64,000 bases of DNA from a virus. A program made the position numbers and the translations under genes. Below the pieces are notes generated by a model, which ran no database searches, was not told the DNA's origin, and saw only the letters and a list, made by a program, of their open reading frames with translations. The DNA is taken from positions 1 through 64,000 of the IMG/VR virus record IMGVR_UViG_3300007546_000003; one strand, given 5' to 3'. This document shows, one piece after another, positions 4,653-45,109 of the stretch (the stretch's first letter is position 1; every line of letters starts with the position of its first letter).

Positions 4653-5216
4653 ATGAAATTGAAACTTATCACTGCTGCTTCTCTAGTAGCATTCTCTGCA
4701 ATGGCAAGCGCACAGTCATCTGTAACTGCAACATATGGTGTTAAAGAAGCAAATGTTACAAGTGTGCAGAGCCATGTAACGAACATGTCTGTTAAGACTC
4801 GTGCATTTACCAATGTCGATCTTGATGCAGGTATCAATACTGAAACTGCTGACGTAGCACGCACTGTTACAAATCGTTATGAAATTGGTGTATCTACAGG
4901 AATGGATCTAACTTCATTTCTTCGTGGTGATGTTCGTCTTGGTACTGGTATGAAGCAAAAATCAGGTGTTCAAGACTTTGGTTACTACTCTGTAGAACCT
5001 GGAGTTACTGCAAAGTTTGGTGATATTAGCACACGTGTAGCATATCGCTATCGTACTGCATATGACTCAAATGTTAATGCTGATACTAGTCAAACTATGC
5101 GTTATAGCGTAGGTTATGCATTAACTAAGAAAGATGCTATCCGACTTGGATATGATGTTCAAAGTGGTGATGGTGCTAACAAGCAAACTACTATCGCTTA
5201 CACTCGCTCATTCTAA
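4653..5216 (+). CDS. Outer membrane beta-barrel (porin-like) protein with signal peptide
   Basis: A 187-residue protein with a textbook Sec signal peptide (MKLKLITAASLVAFSAMASA, cleavage after ASA) and mature start QSSVTATYG, close to the AQSSVTLYG start of betaproteobacterial porins. The remainder shows alternating polar/hydrophobic strands rich in Tyr, Thr and Gly (for example YEIGVSTGM, GYYSVEPGVTAKFG, TRVAYRYRTAY, MRYSVGYAL, AIRLGYDVQSG) and ends in Phe (TIAYTRSF), the C-terminal signature for BAM-dependent insertion. About eight strands are expected. A ribosome binding site (TATAGGA) precedes the start. Probable roles are host-surface alteration, superinfection exclusion or permeability change. 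It follows the tmRNA directly. Confidence 0.8.
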   Translation: MKLKLITAASLVAFSAMASAQSSVTATYGVKEANVTSVQSHVTNMSVKTRAFTNVDLDAGINTETADVARTVTNRYEIGVSTGMDLTSFLRGDVRLGTGMKQKSGVQDFGYYSVEPGVTAKFGDISTRVAYRYRTAYDSNVNADTSQTMRYSVGYALTKKDAIRLGYDVQSGDGANKQTTIAYTRSF

Positions 5217-5225
5217 TTTAAGAGT

Positions 5226-5248
5226 TGATGGTCTCTTTAAAACCATCA
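5226..5248 (+). terminator. Hairpin after the outer membrane protein gene
   Basis: TGATGGT (5226-5232) and ACCATCA (5242-5248) form a 7-bp stem with a 9-nt loop, 10 nt after the stop codon. There is no T-run, so it may be an mRNA 3'-end stabiliser rather than an intrinsic terminator. Confidence 0.35.
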
Positions 5249-5363
5249 TGGATTAGTGAAGTCTTCGCTTGATGTTAGCAACCGATCACCCAATGGTATC
5301 TTGTACTAACTTATAGTGGCAACATTAATATTGTCAATTTATTTTTAATTGTTAGGATATGAT

Positions 5364-5600
5364 ATGAAATCACTTATCGCATTGGTAGCATTGGCATTCG
5401 CATCACTTTCTTTTGCAGCTGAACCTGTTAAGAAAGAAGAATCAAAGGCTCCAGCAAAAACTGAAGCAAACTGCGTAACTAAAGATAAATCTGGTAAGTG
5501 TCCACCTGCTCCAAAGTCTGAAAAGCCTACTCCTAAAAAAGTAGAACATAAAGACGAAAAGAAAGCAGACGCACCAAAAGCAGAAGCCGTAAAGAAGTAA
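5364..5600 (+). CDS. Small secreted Lys/Ala/Pro-rich protein
   Basis: The ATG at 5364 is chosen over an upstream TTG (5349) because AGGAT at 5354-5358 is correctly spaced and the protein then begins with a clean signal peptide (MKSLIALVALAFASLSFA, cleavage before AEPVKK). The mature part of about 60 residues is almost entirely Lys, Ala, Pro and Glu, with two Cys bracketing VTKDKSGK (possible disulphide loop). Such low-complexity periplasmic proteins are common in aquatic Betaproteobacteria, and host origin is plausible. It follows the outer-membrane gene and may act with it in the envelope; function unknown. Confidence 0.7.
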   Translation: MKSLIALVALAFASLSFAAEPVKKEESKAPAKTEANCVTKDKSGKCPPAPKSEKPTPKKVEHKDEKKADAPKAEAVKK

Positions 5601-5621
5601 CAATTCCTAAATAATTGTTAC
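5597..5621 (+). promoter_or_regulatory. Inverted repeat with late-promoter-like CTAAATA at its loop
   Basis: GTAACAATT (5597-5605) pairs with AATTGTTAC (5613-5621), a perfect 9-bp stem with a 7-nt loop; the late-type element CTAAATA (5607-5613) occupies the loop and first stem base. It lies between the Lys-rich secreted protein and the gene at 5683, and could both end the first transcript and start the second. A second weak hairpin (TGAAGG 5629-5634 / CCTTCA 5647-5652, then TTTT) follows. Confidence 0.45.
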
Positions 5622-5682
5622 AGTGGGTTGAAGGATCCCAATAAAACCTTCATTTTACACACACAACACAAAGGAGTATTTT

Positions 5683-5958
5683 ATGTCAAATCTGACACCA
5701 TTCGAAATTCGTCTTGAACTATTAAAAATGGCCAAAGACATGTTAAATGATGATTATTATGGGAAGCGTGAGGTTATTAGCAATGTTTGGCAATCCAAAC
5801 TAGAAATTGCTAAAATCAATGGTGGTGAGTTGCCCGAACATCCAGGGTTTCCAACTTATCCATCAGAAGCTGAAATCATTTCAAAAGCACAAGTGCTTAA
5901 TGGTTTCGTTTCAAACATCCCAAATATAGATACAAAGACTAGCAAAAAGTCTGCCTGA
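5683..5958 (+). CDS. Conserved T4-like phage protein, unknown function
   Basis: A 91-residue soluble protein with a strong ribosome binding site (AAAGGAG). The N-terminal sequence LTPFEIRLELLKMAKDMLND followed by YYGKREVISNVWQSK is a block I recognise from small conserved proteins of T4-like cyanophages and relatives. Predicted mostly helical, with a Pro-rich centre (ELPEHPGFPTYPSEAEI) and a Ser/Lys-rich tail. No catalytic motif is visible. It is followed by a strong hairpin terminator, so it may form a single-gene late unit with the upstream CTAAATA element. Confidence 0.75.
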   Translation: MSNLTPFEIRLELLKMAKDMLNDDYYGKREVISNVWQSKLEIAKINGGELPEHPGFPTYPSEAEIISKAQVLNGFVSNIPNIDTKTSKKSA

Positions 5959-5967
5959 TCGGGATAG

Positions 5968-5995
5968 GAGAAGTGCATTTTGCACTTCTCTCTAA
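5968..5995 (+). terminator. Intrinsic terminator-like hairpin
   Basis: GAGAAGTGCA (5968-5977) pairs perfectly with TGCACTTCTC (5981-5990), a 10-bp stem with a 3-nt loop, 9 nt after the stop of the preceding gene. The tail (TCTAACTTT) is only moderately T-rich. Confidence 0.6.
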
Positions 5996-6011
5996 CTTTA
6001 AAAGGAGAACT

Positions 6012-6572
6012 ATGCGACAATATCGTTTATATGTTCCAATCATACTATTAATACTATGTTTAAGTTTTTATTTGAATTCAGTACTATCAAGTAAAGACAT
6101 TTATTTAAAGATTAACTATTCACAGTTAACACCAGAATCTCAAGAACAAGTGCGTTGTCTTGCAGACAACATTTATTATGAGGCTGGCTATGAGCCAGAT
6201 GATGGTAAACTTGCAGTCGCACTCGTCACAATGAATCGTTTACAAGATCCAAGATATCCAAAAGATATTTGCTCTGTAGTCAAACAAAAGGTAAGATCAA
6301 CATGTCAGTTTAGTTGGTTCTGCGAAAACGTAAAAGCCAAAAGAAATGAAGTATACAATAAAGCAATGGAAGTTGCTCTTGATGTCTATGCTAATTATGA
6401 GAAGCTGACAGACATCACGTATGGTGCATTATTTTATCATGCTGATTACGTCAATCCAAGATGGAAGTTAGAAAAGACGACTGTTATCGGTAGACATATT
6501 TTTTATAAAGAAAGTGAAGGAAAAGATGATGCAAAAAATGAACATTCAACTAAAGGAAGATCAGTCTTCTAA
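6012..6572 (+). CDS. SleB-like cell wall hydrolase with N-terminal membrane anchor
   Basis: ATG 6012 is chosen because AAGGAG (6002-6007) precedes it. Residues about 5-25 form a hydrophobic signal-anchor (LYVPIILLILCLSFYLNSVL). The catalytic domain is of the SleB/hydrolase_2 type: VRCLADNIYYEAGYEPDDGK with the conserved Glu, VALVTMNRL, the QKVRSTCQFSWFCE segment, and GALFYHADYVNPRW near the C-terminus. It is expected to degrade peptidoglycan from the periplasmic side, independently of holin if the anchor exports it. Its 3' end overlaps the next gene by 44 nt in another frame. Confidence 0.8.
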   Translation: MRQYRLYVPIILLILCLSFYLNSVLSSKDIYLKINYSQLTPESQEQVRCLADNIYYEAGYEPDDGKLAVALVTMNRLQDPRYPKDICSVVKQKVRSTCQFSWFCENVKAKRNEVYNKAMEVALDVYANYEKLTDITYGALFYHADYVNPRWKLEKTTVIGRHIFYKESEGKDDAKNEHSTKGRSVF

Positions 6573-7086
6573 ACATTCCTTCTTCTTACTAATGGAAGAA
6601 GTTACGTTGACTAGTGTGAAACAAGCAGTTGAGTGGATATTCGAAGCCAACTTCTCTGAAGAACCACCTGAACTAATGAATTTAATCATTACAAGTCCAG
6701 GTGGTGATTTAAATGCTGCATTTGCATTGATTGATACTATTCGTGGTTCTTCAATTCCAGTTAGAACAATTGGACTTGGACAAGTTGCCTCAGCAGGATT
6801 GATGATCTTTATTGCAGGACATAAAGGACATCGTCTGCTGACACCAAATACATCAATACTCTCGCATCAATACTCTTGGGGTGCGTTTGGTAAAGAACAT
6901 GAACTGTTCGCTACTGTGAAAGAGTTTGATTTAACTACCAAGAAGATGATTTCCCATTACAAAAAATGTACTGGGTTATCAGAAACAAAAATTCGAGAAG
7001 TGCTATTGCCACCTCAGGATATCTGGCTTAGTGCTATCGAAGCAAAAAAGTTAGGACTCTGCGATGACATTAAAGAACTTTCTTAA
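6529..7086 (+). CDS. clpP: ClpP-like serine protease
   Basis: A 185-residue protein of the ClpP/crotonase fold. The nucleophile motif GQVASAG places Ser at residue 88, His113 is in ILSHQYSWG and Asp164 in PPQDIWLSAIEAKKLGL, so the catalytic triad looks complete. It also has the ITSPGGDLNAA oxyanion-hole region. ATG 6529 is preferred over ATG 6526 because AGGA (6518-6521) is then 7 nt upstream. T4-like aquatic phages often carry such a protease, presumably acting with host ClpX/ClpA or alone to redirect host proteolysis; T4 itself lacks it. It overlaps the SleB-like gene upstream and the next gene downstream. Confidence 0.85.
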   Translation: MQKMNIQLKEDQSSKHSFFLLMEEVTLTSVKQAVEWIFEANFSEEPPELMNLIITSPGGDLNAAFALIDTIRGSSIPVRTIGLGQVASAGLMIFIAGHKGHRLLTPNTSILSHQYSWGAFGKEHELFATVKEFDLTTKKMISHYKKCTGLSETKIREVLLPPQDIWLSAIEAKKLGLCDDIKELS

Positions 7087-7255
7087 TTATTGTAAGTATT
7101 CTGGTGTATGGATTTCTCTCACATTAAATCCATATCACTGGAGATTATCATTTGACTACACAAAACCAGATGATATGGATCCAAGTTTATATTCTATCCA
7201 TATCAGCATTGCGCCATTATCAATAAAATTTGTATTGGATGATGGATCATGGTAA
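7064..7255 (+). CDS. Small conserved T4-like phage protein, unknown function
   Basis: A 63-residue protein overlapping the end of clpP by 23 nt. It contains GVWISLTLNPYHWRLSFDY, then KPDDMDPSLYSIHISIAPLS, and ends FVLDDGSW. This Trp/Tyr-rich pattern ending in DDGSW recurs as a conserved small protein in T4-like aquatic phages. It appears beta-rich without a signal peptide. Function unknown. Confidence 0.7.
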   Translation: MTLKNFLNYCKYSGVWISLTLNPYHWRLSFDYTKPDDMDPSLYSIHISIAPLSIKFVLDDGSW

Positions 7256-7305
7256 CAGGAATTTTTACAAAACTTAAACCACCTTCTTTTTTAAAGGAAC
7301 TTATT

Positions 7306-7545
7306 ATGTCAGATAATGTTTTTATCATTTCAATTGCACTTGCTGTTTTGACTGCGATTTGCGCACTTGGTCATGATTCATATGTTTCAACAAAATCTAT
7401 TGAAAGAAACATTGAATCCGCTATCGTTAAAGGTATCGATCCATTAGCTGTTCGTTGTGCTTATGCTAAACGAGATGACACTATTTGTATCGTTTATGCA
7501 TCTTCACACAACTCACCCTCCAGTTTGTCTAGTTCTAAAAAGTAA
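7306..7545 (+). CDS. Small single-pass membrane protein
   Basis: ATG 7306 is preferred over ATG 7249 because AAAGGAAC (7293-7300) precedes it and the N-terminal extension would be non-hydrophobic. The 79-residue product has one transmembrane segment (VFIISIALAVLTAICALG, residues about 5-22) and a soluble tail with two Cys (LAVRCAYAKRDDTICIVYA). Unknown function; a lysis accessory or inner membrane modulator is possible. It is followed by a strong terminator. Confidence 0.65.
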   Translation: MSDNVFIISIALAVLTAICALGHDSYVSTKSIERNIESAIVKGIDPLAVRCAYAKRDDTICIVYASSHNSPSSLSSSKK

Positions 7546-7564
7546 TACTTTAGGATTCTAGCCG

Positions 7565-7593
7565 ATACCCCTCATCTTTTGAGGGGTATTTTT
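7565..7593 (+). terminator. Strong intrinsic terminator
   Basis: ATACCCCTC (7565-7573) and GAGGGGTAT (7581-7589) form a 9-bp GC-rich stem with loop ATCTTTT, ending in TTTTT (7589-7593). It terminates the 5683-7545 gene group. Confidence 0.9.
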
Positions 7594-7604
7594 CCTTGTA
7601 GAAT

Positions 7605-7636
7605 CAACAACTTACCCTCTCTCCAGAAAGTTGTTG
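7605..7636 (+). other. Second hairpin in the 7546-7692 spacer, with a weak promoter downstream
   Basis: CAACAACTT (7605-7613) pairs with AAGTTGTTG (7628-7636), 9 bp with a 14-nt loop. GATTCTA (7554-7560) and TAGAATC (7599-7605) additionally flank the first terminator. TTGTCT (7634-7639), 17 nt and CATAAT (7657-7662) make a weak promoter candidate for the genes starting at 7693. Confidence 0.4.
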
Positions 7637-7692
7637 TCTTTAATCGACCTTTGGAGCATAATATATCTTATAGTGAATGAGAAAGGTTTATT

Positions 7693-7866
7693 ATGAGTCG
7701 AATGGCTGAATTAGACATGGAAATAAACGATGCGTTAGATGCACATCGTGGTCCAGAAAATTGGATGTCCTGCGAGGAAATTGCATTTCAATTGGAAATT
7801 CCAGTTGAGTTGGTGCATCAGGTTGTTGAAAACAGATGGAACATTTTGATTGGAGAATCAGTATGA
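7693..7866 (+). CDS. 57-residue helix-turn-helix-like protein
   Basis: ATG 7693 follows GAAAGG at a suitable distance, and the TGA stop overlaps the next start (ATGA at 7863). The C-terminal half contains WMSCEEIAFQLEIPVELVHQ and continues VVENRW, which reads as a helix-turn-helix (EEIAFQL, turn IP, recognition helix VELVHQVVENRW). The N-terminal half is acidic and helical (MAELDMEINDALDAH). I infer a small DNA-binding regulator. Translational coupling to the GP88-like gene supports it being real. Confidence 0.6.
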   Translation: MSRMAELDMEINDALDAHRGPENWMSCEEIAFQLEIPVELVHQVVENRWNILIGESV

Positions 7867-8564
7867 GTTTACTTACAGTCGGCAACCCAAAATTGCTTAA
7901 AGGTGAGAAGAAAGGCTATTTGTCTTCTGTTCTACACTTTGCGCCAGCAACTCTTTCTGGTAAAGAAGTCTGCCCCAAGCGCACAGCTGGATGTACTGCT
8001 GCATGTTTGAATACTGCTGGTCGTGGTGGCATCTTCAAGAAAGGTGAAACCACCAATGTGATTCAAAAAGCACGGATCCGTAAGACCAAAGCATTCTTCG
8101 AAAATCGTCAAGCATTTCTCAATGAGTTGACTGTTGAGATTATCAAAACAAAAACCAAAGCAGAAAAACAAGGACTGATTCCAGTCTTTCGTTTGAATGG
8201 CACTTCAGATCTCGCATGGGAAAAGTATGAAGTTGCAAATGGTAAAAACATTTTCCAAATGTTTCCAGAAGTGCAATTTTACGATTACACCAAAATCAAC
8301 AATCGCAAAGTTGCACACATTCCAAACTACCACCTGACTTTCTCTAAAGCAGATGGAAACGATATGGATACTCGACTTGCAATTTCAAATGGTATGAATG
8401 TCGCAGTTGTATTCCACAAAGTGCCAGAGAACTATCTTGGTCGTCCAGTTATCAATGGCGATGAGACTGATCTTCGTTTCTTGGATCCTAAAGGTGTTAT
8501 CGTTGGTCTCAAAGCCAAAGGTAAAGCCAAGAAGGATCTTTCTGGATTCGTAGTTACTGCTTGA
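7863..8564 (+). CDS. GP88-like phage protein (gene product 88 family)
   Basis: A 233-residue protein starting at the ATGA overlap with the preceding gene; an alternative upstream frame start at 7836 lacks a binding site. The N-terminus reads LTVGNPKLLKGEKKGYLSSV followed by LHFAPATLSGKEVCPKRTAGCTAACL and NTAGRGG, the hallmark of the GP88 family first named in mycobacteriophages. Conserved Cys residues in CPKRTAGCTAAC could bind metal or a cofactor. The central RLNGTSDLAWEKY and FYDYTKINNRK motifs also fit. Biochemical function unknown. Its TGA stop lies inside the -35 box of the next promoter. Confidence 0.8.
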   Translation: MSLLTVGNPKLLKGEKKGYLSSVLHFAPATLSGKEVCPKRTAGCTAACLNTAGRGGIFKKGETTNVIQKARIRKTKAFFENRQAFLNELTVEIIKTKTKAEKQGLIPVFRLNGTSDLAWEKYEVANGKNIFQMFPEVQFYDYTKINNRKVAHIPNYHLTFSKADGNDMDTRLAISNGMNVAVVFHKVPENYLGRPVINGDETDLRFLDPKGVIVGLKAKGKAKKDLSGFVVTA

Positions 8565-8589
8565 CATTAATTCATAATTAGAGTATAAT
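8561..8589 (+). promoter_or_regulatory. Consensus sigma70 promoter
   Basis: TTGACA (8561-8566), 17-nt spacer, TATAAT (8584-8589). The predicted transcription start is at about 8596-8597, which coincides with the ATG of the next gene, so the mRNA would be leaderless or start translation at the in-frame second ATG (8603). Confidence 0.85.
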
Positions 8590-8596
8590 AGAACTT

Positions 8597-8941
8597 ATGC
8601 AGATGCTACATACATCACTTGGTAAAACCAAGAAGAAGAAACCGACTGCCAAACAACGAGAGTTGCAGTCGTCGTGGGAAACCATGTTAAAGAAGTATGC
8701 CACAAAGACGATTGCACCTAAACAACAATCACTCAGTGAAGTATACTCGCTCGGGAGACCTGCTGGTCGGGAGACCCCTAAGATTCCGAGTCTTCCATTC
8801 AGTGGTGCACCATGCACTAAAAAAGACTCACCAGTCTACACTGGATCTCTAATTAAGGGTATTGGTACTATGCACAAATCAAATGCCATACCAATTTTTA
8901 GTGATGAACAAGCAGTTGAAATTGCAACAATGAGGAGATGA
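8597..8941 (+). CDS. Conserved basic phage protein, unknown function
   Basis: A 114-residue basic protein. The N-terminal part is Lys/Gln-rich (GKTKKKKPTAKQRELQSSWETML), the middle has Pro/Gly-rich SLGRPAGRETPKIPSLPF, and the C-terminus GTMHKSNAIPIFSDEQAVE followed by IATMRR is a block that recurs in many aquatic phage proteins. A nucleic-acid-binding or scaffold role is plausible from the charge, but unproven. Transcription from the promoter at 8561 starts at its first codon. Confidence 0.7.
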   Translation: MQMLHTSLGKTKKKKPTAKQRELQSSWETMLKKYATKTIAPKQQSLSEVYSLGRPAGRETPKIPSLPFSGAPCTKKDSPVYTGSLIKGIGTMHKSNAIPIFSDEQAVEIATMRR

Positions 8942-8942
8942 T

Positions 8943-9581
8943 ATGAAAGTGTTCTCTGCATTCCCAACTCCGATATATATTAATAATATTGAATACGATA
9001 ATGATCTACTTAATACTGTGAAAACCTATGACTATGAATCATTTCACTCTAAAGAACTATCTGGTCGTTACACAGTATCTAAAAATATATTAGATAAATC
9101 TGAGTTGAAATTTTTAAGAACAATTATTGAACAAAATTATAATACACTTTTTTATGATATACTTGGCTTTAATAAAGAAATTGAATTTAGAATAGCAACA
9201 TCTTGGGTAGTTAAATTAGAACCACAAGATTTTGGACACAAGCACTATCATTGCAATAGTTTTTTTAGTGGAGTGCTCTATTTGGAAGTTGATGAGACCA
9301 CTAGTCCCATCGTCTTTTATAGAAATACATCAAACATAAATGAAATGGGTAATCCAGTTATAATTGAAATTCCATTTGATGAAGACTTCTATTATAATGA
9401 ATTTAATTCGCCATCTTGGAAATATCAACCAAAGAAGGGTGATTTGATTTTATTTCCATCTAATTTGGCTCATATGATGCCAGAAAATAGTTCTAACATC
9501 ACAAGATATTCACTGGCATTTAATATATTTCCTTATGGAATATTCGGTAAAAATACTGAAAACGCATTGGAGTTAAAATGA
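8943..9581 (+). CDS. Putative 2OG-Fe(II) oxygenase (TIGR02466-like)
   Basis: A 212-residue relative of the protein at 842-1444, starting KVFSAFPTPIYI (the same FPTP motif). The iron-binding region reads FGHKHYHCNSFFSGVLYLEV, with the distal His in LILFPSNLAHMMPENSS and a 2-oxoglutarate-type Arg in ITRYSLAFNI. It is AT-rich like its neighbours. Substrate unknown. A ribosome binding site (GAGGAG) precedes ATG 8943, and its TGA stop overlaps the next start (ATGA at 9578). Confidence 0.75.
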   Translation: MKVFSAFPTPIYINNIEYDNDLLNTVKTYDYESFHSKELSGRYTVSKNILDKSELKFLRTIIEQNYNTLFYDILGFNKEIEFRIATSWVVKLEPQDFGHKHYHCNSFFSGVLYLEVDETTSPIVFYRNTSNINEMGNPVIIEIPFDEDFYYNEFNSPSWKYQPKKGDLILFPSNLAHMMPENSSNITRYSLAFNIFPYGIFGKNTENALELK

Positions 9582-38736: not shown

Positions 38737-39942
38737 ATGCCAAATATTACATCCGCATCTATTACGCTAAGATCGACTAAGGGTAGTCCTCTTACGAATA
38801 CAGAAGTCGATAATAACTTTAATAACTTAAACACAGCCATTGCGACTGGTTTAACTGCAGCCAGCTATACCGCAGCTGATGTTCTAGCCAAACTAGTTAC
38901 TGTTGATGGTGCTGGATCTGGTCTAGACGCTGACTTACTTGATGGACTGACTACTGCTTCAGCAAATACAGCATCTACTGTTGTTGTTCGTGACGCTTCT
39001 GGTAACTTCTCTGCTGGTACTATTACTGCAGCGTTAACTGGCACAGCGACTATCGCTTCCAGCTTGAATTATACAGTGGCTATCTCTGGTGGTGGTACTG
39101 GTGCTACTACTGCATCATCTGCTAGATCTAACTTAGGTTTGGCAATCGGCTCTGATGTTCAGGCTTATGATGGTGAACTAGCTGCGTTGGCTTCTACCAC
39201 TTCTTCAGCAAATGCACTACCTTACTTTACTGGCGCAGGTACTGCTTCTACTACAACTCTTTCTGCATATGGTCGCACTCTTATCGATGATGCAGATGCA
39301 TCTACTGCTCGTGGTACACTTGGTTTAACGATTGGTTCTGATGTTCAGGCTTATGCGGCAAACTTAGCTGCACTTGCAGGTGTTTCTGGTAATGGTCTTT
39401 ATATTCGTACTGGTGCAGGTACTGCTGTTAATAGATCAATTGCAGCTGGTTCTGGTATTACTGTCTCCAATGGTGATGGTGTTTCTGGTAATCCAACGAT
39501 TAATGCAAACGTATTGTCTGTTCAGGGTAATACTGGTAACGTAATCGTTTCAGTTCCTGTTACTTCTGTTCAGGGTAATACTGGTGCGGTTATTGTTTCT
39601 AACATTGCTGGTAATGCTGCCACTGCCACCAACGCACATGCTGCACATACTTCTCAGTTCTCACACCATGCTCAGTATACTCCATGGTCTCAGGTTCAAG
39701 GTCGTCCACACCACTTATCTCAATTTGCCAACGACTTAGGTAACTATGGTGGTTGGGTTCCACATAATACTAAACATACTAACCCAGATGTCAGCTCTAC
39801 CATTGGGCGAAATGCTGGTGGTGTAGGAAATTGTGGTAATATCGTATCTAGAAACGTATCGAGAATGCACTTAGATACAAACCACCATTTTGATCCTCAC
39901 CATCACCACAATAATTGTACCAATTGTAACTGTAACTGTTAA
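38737..39942 (+). CDS. Tail fibre protein with His/Cys-rich C-terminus
   Basis: A 401-residue fibre-like protein. The N-terminus [20 protein letters not shown] and NNLNTAI is a common fibre-attachment block. The shaft has repeated [16 protein letters not shown] and [12 protein letters not shown] motifs. The last 100 residues are unusual: rich in His ([39 protein letters not shown]) and ending CTNCNCNC. Histidine-coordinated metal ions stabilise the T4 gp37 fibre tip, so metal-dependent tip folding is plausible. The Cys-rich end is also a candidate substrate for the radical SAM maturase at 40965-42356. Confidence 0.75.
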
Positions 39943-39959: not shown

Positions 39960-40895
39960 ATGCAATATATAACTAAACTCCAACATCGTGCTAGATATTT
40001 GGGATACCCAAATGCAGTATTACCAAAACATTTCGATGATTCGGTAGGTTTAACTGGTATCACTGATCCTGTAGAATACGATAGAATATCAGCTGCTGCT
40101 GACCCAACTATTTTCGAACAGATGGAATTTGATTTTAAGTGGGATTTAAATTTAACTGGTAATATTTTAAAAGCAAAATTTATTAATGTTACCGAAAATA
40201 ATAGAATTATTAATAATTTTTCTATTGATATGTCATATTTAAGTAATGCAGACGCATGTACTCTTTGGTATATTAAAGATGATATTATTTTAAGTAATAT
40301 ATCCAAAGTACTTGATGCAGATGCAGAAGAACTAACTATAGTAGATACAGATCTAGTTAATTCTTTCGCAAATACTTTACCAACCAAAAATTTTAATATT
40401 TATGGAACCCATGGTTTAATAGTATTTTATGTGACTAAAGATAATCCAACTCCTGCTGATATTATCACTTGTATTATTAGACCTATAGTTAGCACAGATA
40501 CGGACTATAATACAGTTTTACCAGAAATGTTAAGAAATAATATCGAAATTAAACCACTAGGTGATTATAGAGTTACTGTTACAGGTAATTTGACTAAGCA
40601 TCCTGCTGATCCTACTACATTACTGATTATTGATACACTTTTACCAGAAATAACAGTGACATCTTCAACAGTATCTGGTGATATTGTTACAGTTAATTTT
40701 ACAACAGATTCGAAAATCAATAACATTTATCTGGTCCAATCTGAAGGTTATTTACCAAAATTAAAAATCCCAGTTACTAATGGAACTGGTTCTTTTAAAG
40801 TAGTCACAACTGGTATGGATGCAGGTGATACTATTAAAGTTAAAATGGGTTTTAAATATTGGGTTAACAGAACTGAGTTCACTAAAATATTATAA
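39960..40895 (+). CDS. Beta-rich protein of the fibre region, unknown
   Basis: A 311-residue protein with a good ribosome binding site (AATAGGA). I do not recognise it. It starts YITKLQHRARYLGYPNAVLP, has a central IKDDIILSNISKVLDADAEE region, and the C-terminal 100 residues look like an immunoglobulin-like domain (ITVTSSTVSGDIVTVNFTTD and VKMGFKYWVNRTEF). No signal peptide or membrane segment. A structural or fibre-accessory role is inferred from its place between the His/Cys-rich fibre and the radical SAM operon. Confidence 0.6.
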   Translation: MQYITKLQHRARYLGYPNAVLPKHFDDSVGLTGITDPVEYDRISAAADPTIFEQMEFDFKWDLNLTGNILKAKFINVTENNRIINNFSIDMSYLSNADACTLWYIKDDIILSNISKVLDADAEELTIVDTDLVNSFANTLPTKNFNIYGTHGLIVFYVTKDNPTPADIITCIIRPIVSTDTDYNTVLPEMLRNNIEIKPLGDYRVTVTGNLTKHPADPTTLLIIDTLLPEITVTSSTVSGDIVTVNFTTDSKINNIYLVQSEGYLPKLKIPVTNGTGSFKVVTTGMDAGDTIKVKMGFKYWVNRTEFTKIL

Positions 40896-40912: not shown

Positions 40913-40945
40913 TATCCTATCGGAGATAAATACTCTGATAGGATA
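40913..40945 (+). terminator. 14-bp hairpin carrying a late-promoter element in its loop
   Basis: TATCCTATCGGAG (40913-40925) pairs with CTCTGATAGGATA (40933-40945) through 13 pairs including one G-U, leaving loop ATAAATA (40926-40932). ATTTATTTT follows. It would terminate the upstream fibre transcript; the loop GATAAATA (40925-40932) is a late-promoter match 33 nt before the radical SAM start. Confidence 0.65.
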
Positions 40946-40964: not shown

Positions 40965-42356
40965 ATGGCAACTTTTGAAATTTCAGCATGGAGTCCAGCA
41001 GAAAAGGTTACTAAGAAATTATTTTACAATAGTTCTCTTAGCACATTAAAGTGGGAAGATGGTTCCAATGTTATTGCAGATGTTAGAACACAACCTGATG
41101 TTGTTTCTCCTGCAAAGATTGAACATGGTAAAAAAGATTTAAAAACTGTTAAGATTCAACTAGGTCTTTCTTGTAACTTTGAATGTGATTATTGCAATCA
41201 AAGATTCGTACCACATGCAGATGAAACTAATCCAAACGATGTAGATCCATTTGTATTGAATATGGACTCATGGTATGAAGGTGGGTCTGATGGATTTGGT
41301 AAAGATACAAACTTCGAGTTTTGGGGTGGTGAACCATTTGTTTATTGGAAAACAATGAAGCCTCTTGCAGAAGCACTTAATAAAAAATACCCAAATGCTC
41401 GTATGTCAGTAATTACAAATGGTAGTTTATTAGACATAGAAAAAAATGAGTGGTTAGAACGATATAATTTTGGTGTGGCGGTTTCACATGATGGTCCAGG
41501 ACAACCAGTTCGTGGACCAGATCCTTTAGATGATCCAAAATCTAAAGAAGGTATTATAGATCTTTATAAAAGACTTGCACCAAAGCGTATGTTTAGTTTT
41601 AATTCTATGATTAACTCTAAGAATACTAGTCGTGCTGAGATTGAAAAATTCTTCTTCAATTTTGTTGATACTGAAATCGGTGAGAAATATAAACAGTTCT
41701 TAACAATAGGCGAAGGTGCTTTCGTTGATGCTTATGATGAGGGTGGATTAGCAAATTCTTTAGTTGATGGTGAAGAAGATATTTCTTATAGAAATCAAGC
41801 ATTAGAAGAATTGCGTGCTGGTAAGGTAACAAGATTTGATGTTATCGGGCAGAAAGTCGGTGGGTTTATTGACTCATTAGCGAATGGTGTTAGAATCGAA
41901 TCACTACCCCAAAAGTGTGGTATGGATAAATCTAATTCTATTGCTCTTGACTTAAATGGTAATGTTTTAACCTGCCAAAATGTAAGTCCAGTTTCTACAA
42001 ATCCCGCAGGTATATCTCATAAACTTGGACATATATCTGATCTTTCTTCAACTAGATTAGATTCAGCTACTCATTGGAGTGATAGAAAAGAATGCCCAAA
42101 CTGCCCAGTAGTACATATTTGCAAGGGTGCTTGTATGTTTCTTTCTGGTCCACTATGGGATGCTTCTTGTGATAATGCATTTAGTGATAATATCATCCCA
42201 TTTTGTATCGCAATTGAAGAGATAACAGGATGTATCCCTGAGTATATCGAGGGTCCATTAAGAGAAGATCGTAAAGATATTTTCTGGTGGGTTAAGGGTA
42301 AACCAGAAAAGGTTAGAAAACCTAAAAAGATTATACCGATTGTGATGGCATCATGA
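40965..42356 (+). CDS. Radical SAM/SPASM peptide or protein maturase
   Basis: A 463-residue enzyme; ATG 40965 is preferred over TTG 40953 because GAGGGA (40955-40960) precedes it. The radical SAM cluster motif C-x3-C-x2-C is LSCNFECDYCNQ (residues about 70-77), followed by FEFWGGEPFV (the GGE motif). The C-terminus has a full SPASM signature: C-x13-G-x4-C (from CGMDKSN to GNVLTC), CPNCPVVHICKGAC (C-x2-C-x5-C-x3-C) and further Cys. This arrangement is that of anSME-type sulfatase maturases and RiPP maturases, which modify peptide or protein side chains using auxiliary 4Fe-4S clusters. The stop overlaps the next gene (ATGA). Substrate unknown. Confidence 0.9.
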   Translation: MATFEISAWSPAEKVTKKLFYNSSLSTLKWEDGSNVIADVRTQPDVVSPAKIEHGKKDLKTVKIQLGLSCNFECDYCNQRFVPHADETNPNDVDPFVLNMDSWYEGGSDGFGKDTNFEFWGGEPFVYWKTMKPLAEALNKKYPNARMSVITNGSLLDIEKNEWLERYNFGVAVSHDGPGQPVRGPDPLDDPKSKEGIIDLYKRLAPKRMFSFNSMINSKNTSRAEIEKFFFNFVDTEIGEKYKQFLTIGEGAFVDAYDEGGLANSLVDGEEDISYRNQALEELRAGKVTRFDVIGQKVGGFIDSLANGVRIESLPQKCGMDKSNSIALDLNGNVLTCQNVSPVSTNPAGISHKLGHISDLSSTRLDSATHWSDRKECPNCPVVHICKGACMFLSGPLWDASCDNAFSDNIIPFCIAIEEITGCIPEYIEGPLREDRKDIFWWVKGKPEKVRKPKKIIPIVMAS

Positions 42357-42667
42357 GTAGTTTCTTTAAAGGATACGTATTAGAGATTAATCAATTCCCT
42401 AGAATTGTAGGAAACATTGGAACTATCGAACACTATACAGTCAAAGAAGTATTTGAATTTGATAGTGATACTAAAGAATATGGGTACAGAGATAGCCTAA
42501 TTCCACTACAATCTGTTATAAATAAAGATGAGATTGACCTAAATACAATTAAAGATCTTATAAATAATAAGGTGGCTTTCTTGAGAAGAACCTTAAATTT
42601 TCAGAACCAAACACAAGTCTGGTCTTTTGATACCAGCAAATTAGGAGAACTAAAAAATGACAGTTAA
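42353..42667 (+). CDS. 104-residue protein coupled to the radical SAM gene, unknown
   Basis: A protein of 104 residues whose start overlaps the radical SAM stop (ATGA at 42353) and whose end overlaps the DctP-like gene by 11 nt, so all three are translationally coupled. It reads FFKGYVLEINQFPRIVGNIG, TIEHYTVKEVFEFDSDTKEY, then LNTIKDLINNKVAFLRRTLN. It contains no Cys and no obvious leader-peptide motif. It could be an adaptor or substrate-recognition partner of the maturase, but there is no family match I recognise. Confidence 0.65.
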   Translation: MSSFFKGYVLEINQFPRIVGNIGTIEHYTVKEVFEFDSDTKEYGYRDSLIPLQSVINKDEIDLNTIKDLINNKVAFLRRTLNFQNQTQVWSFDTSKLGELKNDS

Positions 42668-43604
42668 AAATGTAAAATGGGTTATCGCTCATGAGCCTAT
42701 TGGTTTATTTTTGAAGGTAGCCGAAGCATTTTCCAAAGAAGTTAACGAAAGAACTAATGGGAAATTTAATGTTGAGATTCTCTCATTGACTGAGTATTCT
42801 CAAAAGTACAATTTCGGTAAACAACTAACAAAACGATCTATGATGGATTTAGTTGGTTCTGGACAAGTTGAGATGGGTCACATCTATACAACTTGGCTCG
42901 CAGATATCAATCCAGATCTTAATGTTTTAGATTTACCATTCTTGTTTAGAGATCACGATCATGCTGATGCTATTCTTGATGGTCCAATCGGTGCTGATTT
43001 GTTAGCTGGTGTTGAGAAGAACTCTCAGATCAAAGCAATGGCATTTACATATTCTGGTGGATATCGTGTGGTTCCTGCTAATTTTAAAGCAGATACGATT
43101 GAATCTTGGAAAGGTAAAAAAGTTAGAATTAGTTCTAGCCCAGTTGCCCAAGCAACTTTCGAAACACTCGGTGCAATTGCAAATCCTAATATCGAATTAG
43201 AACAAATGAATGAACAAGCCGATCGTGGAAACATCGATGCAGGTGAATCAACTTATGTTCGCATTTTCCCACTACAGCAAAACAAATCTTTCAAGTATGT
43301 TAATGATACTGCACACAGTTTGTTCTTGACTTCTATTATTGTCAATGAGGCTTTCTTCAATCAGTTTGACGATGAAACTAAACAGATCATGTCTGAAGCA
43401 GCATTTAATGCAGCAAAGGCAGAACGTAAAGAATCTGTTGCAGATATTCCAAATATTTTAGATCAATGTAAAGCTGAAAAAGTTGAAGTTATCTCTATGT
43501 CTAAATCTGAACAGAAAAAGATGCAAGATCTATTGACCCCTCTCCATGATAGATTTGAGGCTTCCTTTAGTGATGGATTAGTCAAGAGCATTAAGTCTCA
43601 TTAA
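42657..43604 (+). CDS. DctP-like TRAP solute-binding protein without signal peptide
   Basis: A 315-residue protein with the DctP (TRAP transporter periplasmic subunit) fold: VKWVIAHEPIGLFLKVAEAF, SKEVNERTNGKFNVEILSL, VEMGHIYTTWLADINPDLNV, LDLPFLFRDHDHADAILDGP, then YSGGYRVVPANFKADTIESW and KGKKVRISSSPVAQATFETL. The Arg in KVRISSSPV is the family's ligand carboxylate-binding position. The mature fold starts at residue 3, so there is no signal peptide and the protein should stay in the cytoplasm or enter the virion. It is the third coupled gene after the radical SAM enzyme. Host origin of the fold is likely. Confidence 0.85.
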   Translation: MTVKNVKWVIAHEPIGLFLKVAEAFSKEVNERTNGKFNVEILSLTEYSQKYNFGKQLTKRSMMDLVGSGQVEMGHIYTTWLADINPDLNVLDLPFLFRDHDHADAILDGPIGADLLAGVEKNSQIKAMAFTYSGGYRVVPANFKADTIESWKGKKVRISSSPVAQATFETLGAIANPNIELEQMNEQADRGNIDAGESTYVRIFPLQQNKSFKYVNDTAHSLFLTSIIVNEAFFNQFDDETKQIMSEAAFNAAKAERKESVADIPNILDQCKAEKVEVISMSKSEQKKMQDLLTPLHDRFEASFSDGLVKSIKSH

Positions 43605-43610
43605 TCTAAA

Positions 43611-43617
43611 CTAAATA
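43611..43617 (+). promoter_or_regulatory. Late-promoter-like CTAAATA
   Basis: CTAAATA lies between the DctP-like stop and a strong terminator only 10 nt downstream (43627-43651). A transcript starting here would pass through that hairpin at once, so it may be an attenuated start or a chance match. Confidence 0.35.
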
Positions 43618-43626
43618 TATTATACA

Positions 43627-43651
43627 GGGGATGTTTAGCATCCCCTTTTTA
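43627..43651 (+). terminator. Strong intrinsic terminator after the DctP-like gene
   Basis: AGGGGATG (43627-43634), loop TTTAG, CATCCCCT (43640-43647), then a T-run to 43651. It closes the radical SAM operon. Confidence 0.9.
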
Positions 43652-43655
43652 TTTT

Positions 43656-44711
43656 ATGGAAAATATAATGAAACCTAGAATTTTATATTATAACAAAAAA
43701 CAAGCACCTTTCTTAATTAATAGAGATGCTTCTTCAATGTCACCATTTTTATCTAAAACGTATACATATAAAATTTTTAATTCATATGAGACACTTGGAT
43801 TAAATAAACATAATATGGTATATGATAGATCTGGTTCTGTACCACATTATTTAAATATTGCAGAAGATGCCCACCCAATACCAGAGGTGGGTATTTCTTT
43901 TAATAAATCATTTTATCAAGCATGTGAAGAACGTGCAAAGCACCTCCTAAGTCTTAATAAAGTAGTACATGTACTTTGGTCTGGTGGAATTGATAGCACT
44001 TTTGTTTTATTCATGTTAAAGAAATTCTCCAACGATCCCGATCAGGTTAGAGTTTGGGGTACATTAAATTCTATCTTAGAATCTGGTGATATGTTTGATA
44101 GAAGATTAAAGAATGAATTTCCTTACACTATCCTAGAACCAACAGATAATGAGTTTTCCTTTAATGTAAATGAATGTATTTTTGTCAGTGGGATGGGTGG
44201 GAATCAGTTATTTGGACCAACAGATGATATGTTCGCCACTGGTGGAACTGCTATGTTCCACCACACTCTTGGTACTCCAGAAACTATATACGAATCTTAC
44301 GAGAATAACATAGACCCTAAACTATTAGAATTTCTGGATCCAATGATAAAGAATTCTTATAGGAAAATTGAAACAGTCGCCGATCTAAGATGGTATTGTA
44401 TTTTTAATCTAGACTGGTACACTGGCTTATATGAACATAGAACAATGCTTCAGATAGAAAAGACTAAAAAGATGCATGCGTTTTTTGATTCTGACGATCT
44501 ACAACGCTGGGCTATGACTACTAAAGAACCATTCACCAAAGTTCGTGGGAATGCCAATACACATCGTTGGCAAATGAGGCAAATTCTGTCCGAAGAATTC
44601 GGAGAACGAGATTATGCTTTAAACAAATCAAAGAAAATATCAAACCTAAACGTCCAACGTCCTCAGTGGCTATTTTTACTAGACGATTTCCATAATGTCC
44701 TGATCGACTAA
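43656..44711 (+). CDS. PP-loop ATP pyrophosphatase (asparagine synthetase-like)
   Basis: A 351-residue protein with the PP-loop signature LWSGGIDSTFVLFMLKKF (residues about 107-124), as in the C-terminal domain of asparagine synthetases and other ATP pyrophosphatases that adenylate a substrate carboxyl or carbonyl. An N-terminal glutaminase domain is absent (no Cys at position 2). Other motifs include ILYYNKKQAPFLINRDASS and FVSGMGGNQLFGPTDD, typical of AsnB-like folds. ATG 43656 and in-frame ATG 43668 are both possible; neither has a good binding site. It lies just after the radical SAM operon and may act in the same modification pathway, or independently in amide or nucleoside chemistry. 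Confidence 0.75.
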   Translation: MENIMKPRILYYNKKQAPFLINRDASSMSPFLSKTYTYKIFNSYETLGLNKHNMVYDRSGSVPHYLNIAEDAHPIPEVGISFNKSFYQACEERAKHLLSLNKVVHVLWSGGIDSTFVLFMLKKFSNDPDQVRVWGTLNSILESGDMFDRRLKNEFPYTILEPTDNEFSFNVNECIFVSGMGGNQLFGPTDDMFATGGTAMFHHTLGTPETIYESYENNIDPKLLEFLDPMIKNSYRKIETVADLRWYCIFNLDWYTGLYEHRTMLQIEKTKKMHAFFDSDDLQRWAMTTKEPFTKVRGNANTHRWQMRQILSEEFGERDYALNKSKKISNLNVQRPQWLFLLDDFHNVLID

Positions 44712-44773: not shown

Positions 44774-45109
44774 ATGGCGACTGTTAGTAATCTATTCGTT
44801 GACGCTGGGGCTAACTACAGCAATATAATTACTGTATCCGCATCCAATGGTCAAGCACTCGATTTGACTGGATATACTGTGGCTTCTCAAATGAGAAAGT
44901 CATATCAGTCCAGCACATCCTATAATTTCACATCAAGTATATACTTAGCAGCTTCTGGTAAGGTTAGACTTCAATTAACAGATGTACAATCTGCTAGTAT
45001 TCCAGCTGGACGCTGGCTTTATGATGTAGAGATAACTTCTCCATCTGGTACAAAAACCAGAGTAGTCGAGGGAGTTGTCACAGTTAACCCACAAATTACA
45101 CAGATTTAA
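44774..45109 (+). CDS. Small beta-sandwich virion protein
   Basis: A 111-residue protein with Ig-like beta character: ANYSNIITVSASNGQALDLT, GYTVASQMRKSYQSST, SGKVRLQLTDVQSASIPAGR, WLYDVEITSPSGTKTRVVEG. This matches small conserved structural proteins of T4-like aquatic phages found upstream of fibre genes, similar in style to receptor-binding adaptor domains. It has no signal peptide. Expressed from the TATAAATA promoter. Confidence 0.7.
   Translation: MATVSNLFVDAGANYSNIITVSASNGQALDLTGYTVASQMRKSYQSSTSYNFTSSIYLAASGKVRLQLTDVQSASIPAGRWLYDVEITSPSGTKTRVVEGVVTVNPQITQI

Follow-up and report, generated by a model that had tools for sequence, protein, structure and literature searches.

Gene content of the locus

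The window, which is the whole stretch of 64,000 nucleotides analysed here (positions 1 to 64,000 of the IMG/VR virus record IMGVR_UViG_3300007546_000003), contains a group of tail-fibre and neighbouring genes whose features, as described below, all lie on the + strand. A tail-fibre-like protein of 401 residues (38737–39942), which matches tail-fibre and structural-protein families of PHROG and is the proposed substrate carrier, ends at its C-terminus in the tail NCTNCNCNC (39913–39939) and lies upstream of a radical SAM/SPASM enzyme of 463 residues (40965–42356), the putative fibre-tip maturase. The gene between them, g311 (39960–40895), encodes a fast-evolving protein, with 28.2% identity on average across 11 loci; its C-terminal domain, about 90 residues long, is conserved, and Pfam gives no match up to E 1. 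Downstream of the maturase are located u104, a 104-residue protein without a recognised fold (42353–42667), a DctP-like solute-binding protein (42657–43604), and PPL, a PP-loop ATPase with an SGGIDS motif and an asparagine-synthetase-like domain (43656–44711). A flanking gene of the tail-fibre assembly protein family (44774–45109; PHROG 1084 and 3304) is retained in many relatives that share the layout of the window.

An earlier, sequence-only reading had grouped the maturase, u104, and DctP into one translationally coupled late unit, with a promoter-bearing hairpin upstream and a terminator downstream. The three reading frames and their overlaps, an ATGA at the maturase/u104 junction and 11 nucleotides between u104 and DctP, were confirmed by an ORF check. 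Terminator-like hairpins are also present on both sides, one at 40913–40945 (13 bp, TAAATA in the loop, followed by a T-rich tail) and one 3′ of DctP at 43626–43646; a scan of 4.1 kb gave five sites of this kind, these two included, against a shuffle mean of 2.0 (sd 1.8). The proposed late promoter, the 8-base TATAAATA, was rejected since its 4 occurrences in the window show no enrichment over the 7.8 expected and what relatives conserve is the shorter TAAATA. Of 14 chosen related loci, 12 have this hexamer in the gap that separates g311 from the maturase (mononucleotide-shuffle mean 1.7). In the gap that follows DctP, 9 of 10 loci have it (mean 0.6); there, in the window, it stands at 43612–43617, ahead of the ligase-like PPL gene. 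Its conservation in both gaps supports late-promoter-like elements. Judged by linkage, the genes do make up a late cassette among virion genes, but the trio is not the functional unit.

The radical SAM/SPASM enzyme

Profile matches and an alignment of relatives identify the enzyme encoded at 40965–42356. Its Pfam Radical_SAM score of 29.2 bits falls just under the cut-off of 29.5; it matches the radical SAM family PHROG 1802 with E 5e-62 and exceeds the cut-off of the NCBIfam SPASM domain TIGR04085 (34.0 bits, cut-off 27). SPASM domains follow the pattern C-x9-15-G-x4-C ... CxxC-x5-C-x3-C ... C, and the full set of motifs claimed by the sequence-only reading is borne out, with the CxxxCxxC motif (C70, C74, C77) and the seven SPASM cysteines (C318, C337, C377, C380, C386, C390, and C402) invariant in 26/26 rows of the same-family alignment.

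Known families of RiPP maturases in NCBIfam are only distantly approached: among the matches listed (25 of 42 models), the best score is 50.6 bits against a cut-off of 340, and known maturase chemistry is therefore not transferable. The nearest NCBIfam model among these matches is PapB, a ranthipeptide thioether maturase that joins Cys to Asp or Glu and tolerates Cys-Xn-Asp with n of 0–6 (PMC9413430). Neighbours with solved structures include 5wgg and the anaerobic sulfatase-maturating enzyme 4k37. The window enzyme shares with RiPP maturases the SAM core, the seven SPASM cysteines, and a gene paired with a Cys-rich C-terminal substrate candidate. Unlike in those systems, where the substrate is a small peptide, this candidate is the tail end of a structural protein of the virion, and no leader or recognition domain was identified for the enzyme; the strand–helix order of u104, considered as a RiPP recognition element, was judged unlike a winged helix (model pLDDT 83).

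That the gene instead encodes a metabolic or antiviral radical SAM enzyme, of the haem-type AhbD or viperin-like kind and carried as an auxiliary gene, is highly improbable. PADLOC viperin models do match residues 64–176 (E 5e-12), and the NCBIfam prokaryotic viperin model reaches 38.9 bits, but its cut-off is 180, the equivalog and subfamily models for maturases and viperins all stay far under their cut-offs among the matches listed, and the gene is linked to fibre tails. To our knowledge, viperins have no SPASM domain. A defence role was likewise set aside, the viperin-core matches being only weak.

The fibre and its Cys-x-Cys tail

The fibre protein is built of a conserved shaft, a hypervariable segment after LGNYG, and the Cys-Asn tail, with mean identities of 63.7, 28.1, and 93.9%, respectively, in 11 loci. 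The codons of the tail vary synonymously while its protein sequence is kept, and this protein-level conservation, together with the linkage to the maturase, makes the tail the proposed site of modification. Over 125 distinct tails, the residue x of Cys-x-Cys is N at 357 positions, A at 73, and D at 33 (463 of 487). Many phages and prophages that differ in build have the maturase gene next to a tail-fibre gene whose product ends in repeated Asn-Cys, and tail and enzyme stay paired across carriers of about 50 to more than 1000 residues in several bacterial groups. In many relatives, g311 lies between or beside the two genes.

In some relatives, among them cultured Achromobacter phages such as JWF, phage 2-1, and Burkholderia paludis, a predicted Hint self-cleavage domain, which is absent from the window, begins straight after the tail. 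In gp028 of JWF, the Pfam Hom_end_hint match (E 3e-12) begins at residue 308, where the Cys-Asn tail has just ended, and spans profile positions 1–37 of 228; in two further loci (L240 and L258) it lies under the curated cut-off. With the predicted cleavage domain placed in this way, the tail could still become C-terminal in these relatives.

Linkage of tail and maturase

Viral loci were gathered by a maturase search that used no tail information. Near-copies, weak matches, and loci with less than 4.5 kb of upstream sequence were left out, so that the counts rest on 24 of the 47 viral loci and on 47 of the 70 from bacterial genomes. A Cys-x-Cys tail stands beside the maturase on the same strand in 22/24 distinct viral and 40/47 distinct bacterial-genome loci, the latter found with a profile in which 8 of 26 rows came from tail-selected contigs. 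Among DctP loci, a same-strand tail is present in 31/33, a set that overlaps the viral one (14 of 42 DctP loci share the last 300 residues of the maturase). Opposite-strand tails were seen in 0/24 viral, 1/47 bacterial, and 0/33 DctP loci. Seven of the 47 bacterial loci have no tail by the rule, one of them (L243) carrying an internal tail.

The reverse direction was examined with 50 records that were drawn by a DNA pattern, were new to the maturase search, and retained near-copies. At E ≤ 0.001, PHROG 1802 gives matches even in each of the 14 cellular genomes used as controls, and only strong matches are therefore informative. At E < 1e-60, PHROG 1802 was found in 17/30 records in which NCNCNC-stop ends an ORF of at least 80 residues, in 1/20 in which it ends a short frame, and, outside these 50, in 0/9 control records with NSNSNS-stop; in the single short-frame record (L182), a true tail adjoins the maturase at another site. 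No maturase was detected for the tails of 13/30 records here and 8/27 in a second tail set, whose 19/27 with maturase are description only, 14 being already known to have it and at least four lying in contigs of the viral maturase search. Many of the maturase-less records are short fragments of the window's phage type; others carry the tail on different proteins (L071, L116, L128; L074, L103, L121, L136; L110). Some maturase-less records are 39–90 kb long.

A comparison restricted to relatives of the fibre shaft kept 53 of 80 loci, and most of the maturase-less ones share only the shaft with the window fibre. By the preset rule, which accepts any nearby tail, tails accompany 5/7 loci with maturase versus 2/46 without (p 1.4e-4); by a looser rule on the fibre's own end, chosen afterwards, the counts are 7/7 with and 0/46 without a detected maturase. 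Six of the seven maturase loci stem from contigs in earlier sets, and only L355 is new. The two loci counted by the preset rule as tail without maturase are L424, which is zinc-ribbon-like, and L361, which holds three PHROG 1802 matches (E 4e-46, 2e-43, and 5e-30) too divergent for the maturase rule, one of which begins about 200 bases after the tail gene.

The u104–DctP–PPL cassette

The sequence-only reading had named independent occurrence in relatives as the finding that would speak against its trio, and independent occurrence is what the conservation check revealed. The maturase lacks a DctP gene within 5 kb in 7/20 distinct viral loci (six without PPL as well, one with PPL only) and in 38/38 distinct bacterial-genome loci, and DctP lacks a maturase in 17/42 fetched loci, counted in the locus and not the whole record (loci with 1.5 kb on both sides, near-copies removed). 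On these patterns, the trio was rejected as a unit. PPL lies within 5 kb of DctP in 35/42 loci, directly adjacent in 31, and was not seen at this distance in 7/42; u104 is missing from loci that keep maturase and tail. Judged from gene occurrence, u104, DctP, and PPL are a separate, exchangeable cassette.

DctP matches Pfam PF03480 over the whole domain (E 1.7e-45) and, with Arg157 kept in 16/17, resembles the binding proteins of TRAP transporters. It differs from them in its partner, which is PPL and not DctQM, and in having no signal peptide. The latter, already stated by the sequence-only reading, agrees with the N-termini of phage relatives, none of whose 56 distinct sequences is strongly hydrophobic when judged by hydropathy alone (peaks of 0.8–1.6 versus 1.75–2.3 in four binding proteins with signal-peptide-like starts). 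No DctQ or DctM was found among the nine neighbouring window proteins scanned. Searches of a phage collection gave 13 records for DctP (21–36% identity; some annotated as bacterial TRAP proteins, the rest unannotated), one weak match for PPL, and none for u104, whose model (pLDDT 83) has no PDB fold match at E < 0.001.

PPL shares the PP-loop SGGxDS and the synthetase-domain fold with AsnB, the beta-lactam and carbapenam synthetases, and the nitrile synthetase PesC (PMC13060819). The closest folds to that of its model (pLDDT 74) are those of asparagine and carbapenam synthetases (E 6e-4; TM-scores reach 0.40), and PPL scores 12.7 bits against Pfam Asn_synthase, below the cut-off of 21. Unlike those ligases, it has no recognised glutaminase domain, and its sequence match to a nitrile synthetase is only E 0.011.

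PPL would adenylate a carboxylate and the cytosolic DctP would bind a carboxylate ligand; that DctP serves the ATP-dependent ligase in this way is a guess, which we hold to be appreciably short of even odds. It is doubtful, at slightly lower odds, that the cassette instead serves phage metabolism by handling solutes and plays no part in the virion. A role of this kind would fit relatives in which the neighbours of a cytosolic DctP are TctC-like binding proteins whose starts resemble signal peptides (L306, L310, L311, L324, L325) or TctA (L330), and one relative (L327) with a full DctQ–DctM–DctP set. It fits less well with the position of the cassette, which is within the fibre cluster both in the window and in those maturase-bearing relatives that were seen, with the late-promoter-like elements in the loci checked, and with a DctP that lacks a signal peptide and, as far as its window neighbours were examined, any transporter gene nearby.

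The sequence-only reading had also considered DctP as the substrate of the maturase, or as a packaged adhesin toward host TRAP components. Gene order and overlap with maturase and u104 speak for this, and late virion genes need no signal peptide. However, the separate occurrence of maturase and DctP argues against a substrate role, DctP of the window contains a single Cys, and it evolves slowly: its mean identity over 11 loci is 71.9%, which ranks it with the better-conserved proteins of the region, and compares with 28.1% for the hypervariable fibre segment; a fast-evolving adhesin would be a poor match for this. DctP is probably not the substrate, and either role is very unlikely.

Proposed maturation of the fibre tip

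The maturase gene beside an Asn-Cys-ending fibre gene suggests chemical remodelling of fibre tips. In our main reading, to which we give a probability of roughly 0.6, two modules adjoin: fibre gene, g311, and maturase, whose enzyme would remodel the tail, and u104, DctP, and PPL, of which the last two would handle a carboxylate. The radical SAM/SPASM enzyme would act on the C-terminal (Cys-[Asn/Ala/Asp])n tail before virion assembly, most likely by linking the sulfur of Cys with a carbon atom in a neighbouring residue, and would thereby yield a compact, redox-stable tip, located behind the hypervariable segment that presumably faces the receptor. That the enzyme cross-links or otherwise remodels the tail there is the best reading of the locus. 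The analysis establishes the genes, their motifs, the conservation of the tail, and its linkage; of the two steps deduced from them, the tail is quite likely the substrate, and a thioether as the product comes close to an even chance. The suggestion of the sequence-only reading that the maturase modifies a virion protein is probably right, as far as linkage can tell. The enzyme tracks the Cys-Asn tail of the fibre.

An alternative, which appears unlikely, is that the tail forms a metal-binding or disulfide tip, similar to metallothionein, and that the enzyme has a different target, such as g311 or some other fibre residue. CxC repeats are often found as metal-thiolate motifs, some tails have no detected maturase, and g311-like proteins accompany the tail–maturase pair in many loci; g311 could itself be the substrate. 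Yet a metal tip would need no radical enzyme, g311 has no shared conserved Cys pattern (0–4 Cys), and tail and maturase remain together over carriers of very different length and several bacterial groups.

Significance and relation to reported phage radical SAM genes

Phage receptor-binding tips are usually regarded as unmodified protein. If a dedicated tip maturase exists, it adds chemistry to host recognition, recombinant fibres of such phages miss their true tips, and peptide-modifying enzymes gain a new substrate class. Somewhat below even odds, we propose more broadly that many tailed phages differing in build and host cross-link the (Cys-Asn)n ends of their receptor-binding fibres by a dedicated radical SAM enzyme, a hitherto unrecognised class of chemically matured virion tip that some would expose by a Hint domain and others decorate further with an asparagine-synthetase-like ligase and a captive DctP ligand carrier. 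Because of the linkage, cultured phages, as well as the prophages of lake and soil bacteria in culture, are open to a direct test.

No report of a maturase paired with a Cys-tailed fibre was seen in the literature listings searched, which left aside subscription papers and most preprints, or in passages of PMC7029224, PMC9301287, and PMC6591296. The host-recognition cluster of pelagimyophages, which are T4-like, is likewise a hypervariable fibre region with radical SAM genes, in cassettes that differ between two relatives; unlike the pairing in the window, these genes are given no partner or function in the text available (PMC7029224). In the Baltic Sea virome, 261 instances of ahbD are described in viruses, with a function called speculative, and outside Archaea and Desulfovibrio only three contigs have both radical SAM domains, according to the available text (PMC9301287). 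The fibre linkage cautions against reading phage radical SAM genes, perhaps including the Baltic ahbD genes, as metabolic.

Gene neighbourhood of the maturase

The IMG/VR virus record containing the window is 72,815 bases long and, since its window proteins match T4-like baseplate, tail sheath, terminase and portal families, is assigned to a contractile-tailed phage. The three overlapping genes of the sequence-only reading are present as claimed, with overlaps of 4 and 11 nt: a radical SAM/SPASM maturase (40965-42356), a 104-residue protein, u104 (42353-42667), and a DctP-like solute-binding protein (42657-43604), all on the + strand. The maturase (PHROG 1802, 5e-62; Pfam score 29.2, just below the cut-off of 29.5) does carry the full SPASM motifs, as all seven SPASM cysteines and the SAM-binding cysteines are present, and these are invariant across 26 aligned relatives. 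The DctP-like protein (PF03480, 1.7e-45) begins directly at the mature domain, in line with the proposed lack of a signal peptide; hydropathy peaks are 0.8-1.6 in 56 distinct N-termini of its phage relatives, compared with 1.75-2.3 in four binding proteins whose starts resemble signal peptides. For u104, nothing better than E 0.05 was found in Pfam, PHROGs or NCBIfam.

The observed trio is confirmed; the functional unit is redrawn. Among 47 viral loci retrieved using the maturase alone, a frequent order is a large tail protein, a small protein, the fibre, a fast-evolving protein (39960-40895, + in the window) and the maturase, followed either by u104, DctP and a PP-loop ATPase (PPL; 43656-44711, +) and then a fibre-assembly gene, or by the latter directly. 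In 20 distinct viral loci with room on both sides, DctP stands after the maturase in 12 and before it in 1, PPL occurs alone in 1 and none of them in 6; u104 and PPL are present in all 13 with DctP. Bacterial-genome loci of the maturase have DctP in 0/38 and PPL in 3/38 (distinct loci). Conversely, PPL lies within 5 kb of DctP in 35 of 42 distinct DctP loci (adjacent in 31), with the maturase in the same locus in 25 and u104 in 23. In a 52-row DctP tree, unsure because of several long branches, the label "with maturase" changes 6 times, at least 3 of these forced by well-supported branches. From these counts and changes, the maturase and the u104-DctP-PPL cassette look like two modules joined more than once. 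Thus, although the genes and overlaps are real, a single unit does not hold, the maturase occurring without DctP within 5 kb in 7/20 viral and 38/38 bacterial-genome loci.

A Cys-x-Cys fibre tail as candidate substrate

Every listed fibre protein from maturase-fetched loci (38737-39942, + in the window) ends in a Cys-x-Cys tail, mostly NCNCNC, preceded by a hypervariable segment; across 11 loci, the shaft shows 63.7% identity, the variable segment 28.1% and the last columns 93.9%. Because tail codons vary synonymously, the tail is conserved as protein and not as a DNA repeat. Between the cysteines of 125 distinct tails, Asn fills 357 of 487 positions, Ala 73 and Asp 33. By rule, a same-strand tail was counted in 22/24 viral, 40/47 bacterial-genome and 31/33 DctP loci (distinct; the last set overlaps the viral one), and an opposite-strand tail in 0/24, 1/47 and 0/33. 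Both viral misses end NCRNCNC; of the seven bacterial ones, L243 has an internal run, L234, L255, L266, L274 and L277 showed no tail in an upstream search, and the seventh is L281.

The tail is also found on other proteins: three tandem 86-109 aa proteins near the maturase, each with its own variable segment (L048:3799-4608, L081:6202-7114, L105:2048-2972), 125-173 aa Cys/Asn-rich proteins immediately before it (records of L070, L072, L122), and, in L294, a separate protein of 128 aa. In the cultured Achromobacter phages JWF and 2-1, Burkholderia paludis MSh1 and six further bacterial loci it continues into a Hint-type Cys-Phe start, mostly CFPAGT. In JWF gp028, Hom_end_hint position 1 falls at residue 308, directly past the tail (Pfam, E 3e-12; first 37 of 228 profile positions); the match is below the curated cut-off in L240 and L258, and the other starts were assigned by sequence. 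Hint-type cleavage before the first cysteine would leave the preceding segment, here the tail, C-terminal. This putative cleavage suggests that a C-terminal position matters.

Starting from the tail, the DNA pattern NCNCNC-stop was found in at least 119 stretches, and 50 of its records were new relative to the maturase search. The pattern ends an ORF of ≥80 aa in 30 of them, 17 of which match PHROG 1802 at E<1e-60; the 20 short-frame records gave one such match, where a true tail adjoins the maturase (L102/L182), and one weak match (E 8e-4). Only strong matches were counted because E<=0.001 is positive in 14/14 cellular control genomes. PHROG 1802 was present in 19 of 27 further tail-bearing records (in 14 of the 27 the maturase was visible before the count) and in 0/9 NSNSNS-stop controls. 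Many tail records without PHROG 1802 are short pieces; others, some of 39-90 kb, encode different proteins (184-186 aa in L071, L116 and L128, 202 aa in L074, L103, L121 and L136, all ending NCNCNC; another in L110), and these argue against a strict tail-maturase rule.

In the 53 usable loci with the common fibre shaft, the Cys tail stands at the fibre's own end in 7/7 with the maturase, six of these on contigs known beforehand, and 0/46 without. The preset rule counts 5/7 with the maturase, and its table gives p 1.4e-4. L361 (record G057), scored as tail without maturase, holds three divergent enzymes (PHROG 1802 E 4e-46, 2e-43 and 5e-30; just 1e-9 to 1e-15 with our own profile), one beginning ~200 bases past the tail gene, whose tail differs in composition (CECQCQCAC).

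The fibre tail is probably the maturase substrate (roughly 80%). A maturase with a Cys-rich substrate is a known arrangement; unlike in known pairs, the candidate substrate here is a virion protein. What is new is that a radical SAM/SPASM enzyme is paired with Cys-Asn fibre tails, of which no report was found in the literature searched.

Akkermansia muciniphila MAG-labelled contigs L226 and L227, perhaps mis-binned phage contigs, carry a maturase of the same family. Some DctP-less loci carry, between the tail genes and the maturase, several genes resembling 2OG-Fe(II) oxygenases, possibly further modifying enzymes (L081:4757-5392, L029:6207-8001, L048:6160-7998, L236); the only one checked in Pfam, that of L081, scores 26.5 bits against a cut-off of 27.

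Putative chemistry of the maturase and role of the cassette

By sequence, the closest solved chains are 8vpo, a radical SAM protein without given function, 5wgg, the thioether-forming CteB, and anaerobic sulfatase-maturating enzymes. The closest NCBIfam model is PapB, although the maturase scores far under its cut-off; PapB is described as linking Cys with Asp or Glu, close spacings included (PMC9413430). Because of these structures and models and the PapB chemistry, the maturase, if it acts on the tail, would by analogy form thioethers from Cys to neighbouring residues, a preference held at slightly under even odds; different cross-links or epimerisation are possible outcomes.

PPL carries an SGGIDS motif, and its fold, compared from a model of pLDDT 74, is closest to asparagine, carbapenam and beta-lactam synthetases (E 6e-4 and weaker, TM <=0.40). 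In DctP, the Arg that holds the ligand carboxylate in this family is kept in 16/17. PPL also matches a nitrile synthetase weakly (E 0.011), and a RiPP enzyme of that type converts a peptide C-terminal carboxylate to a nitrile (PMC13060819). Tentatively, DctP would carry or sense a carboxylate on behalf of PPL. The cassette may instead have a metabolic role, since the neighbours of DctP in maturase-less loci include transporter genes and binding proteins that begin with signal-peptide-like sequence. L327, a phage contig with a head-tail adaptor gene nearby, has a full TRAP set (5058-8948; DctQ, DctM and a DctP with a signal-peptide-like start) immediately ahead of the cytosolic DctP, with PPL copies lying further upstream. 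TctC-like binding proteins with such starts accompany cytosolic DctP in L306, L310, L311, L324, L325 and L330, the last also with TctA; the TctC of L324 and the TctA of L330 were confirmed with Pfam, the remaining TctC-like calls resting on N-termini. In L346 (6946-10074), DctP copies lie in tandem, the first two each broken into two frames.
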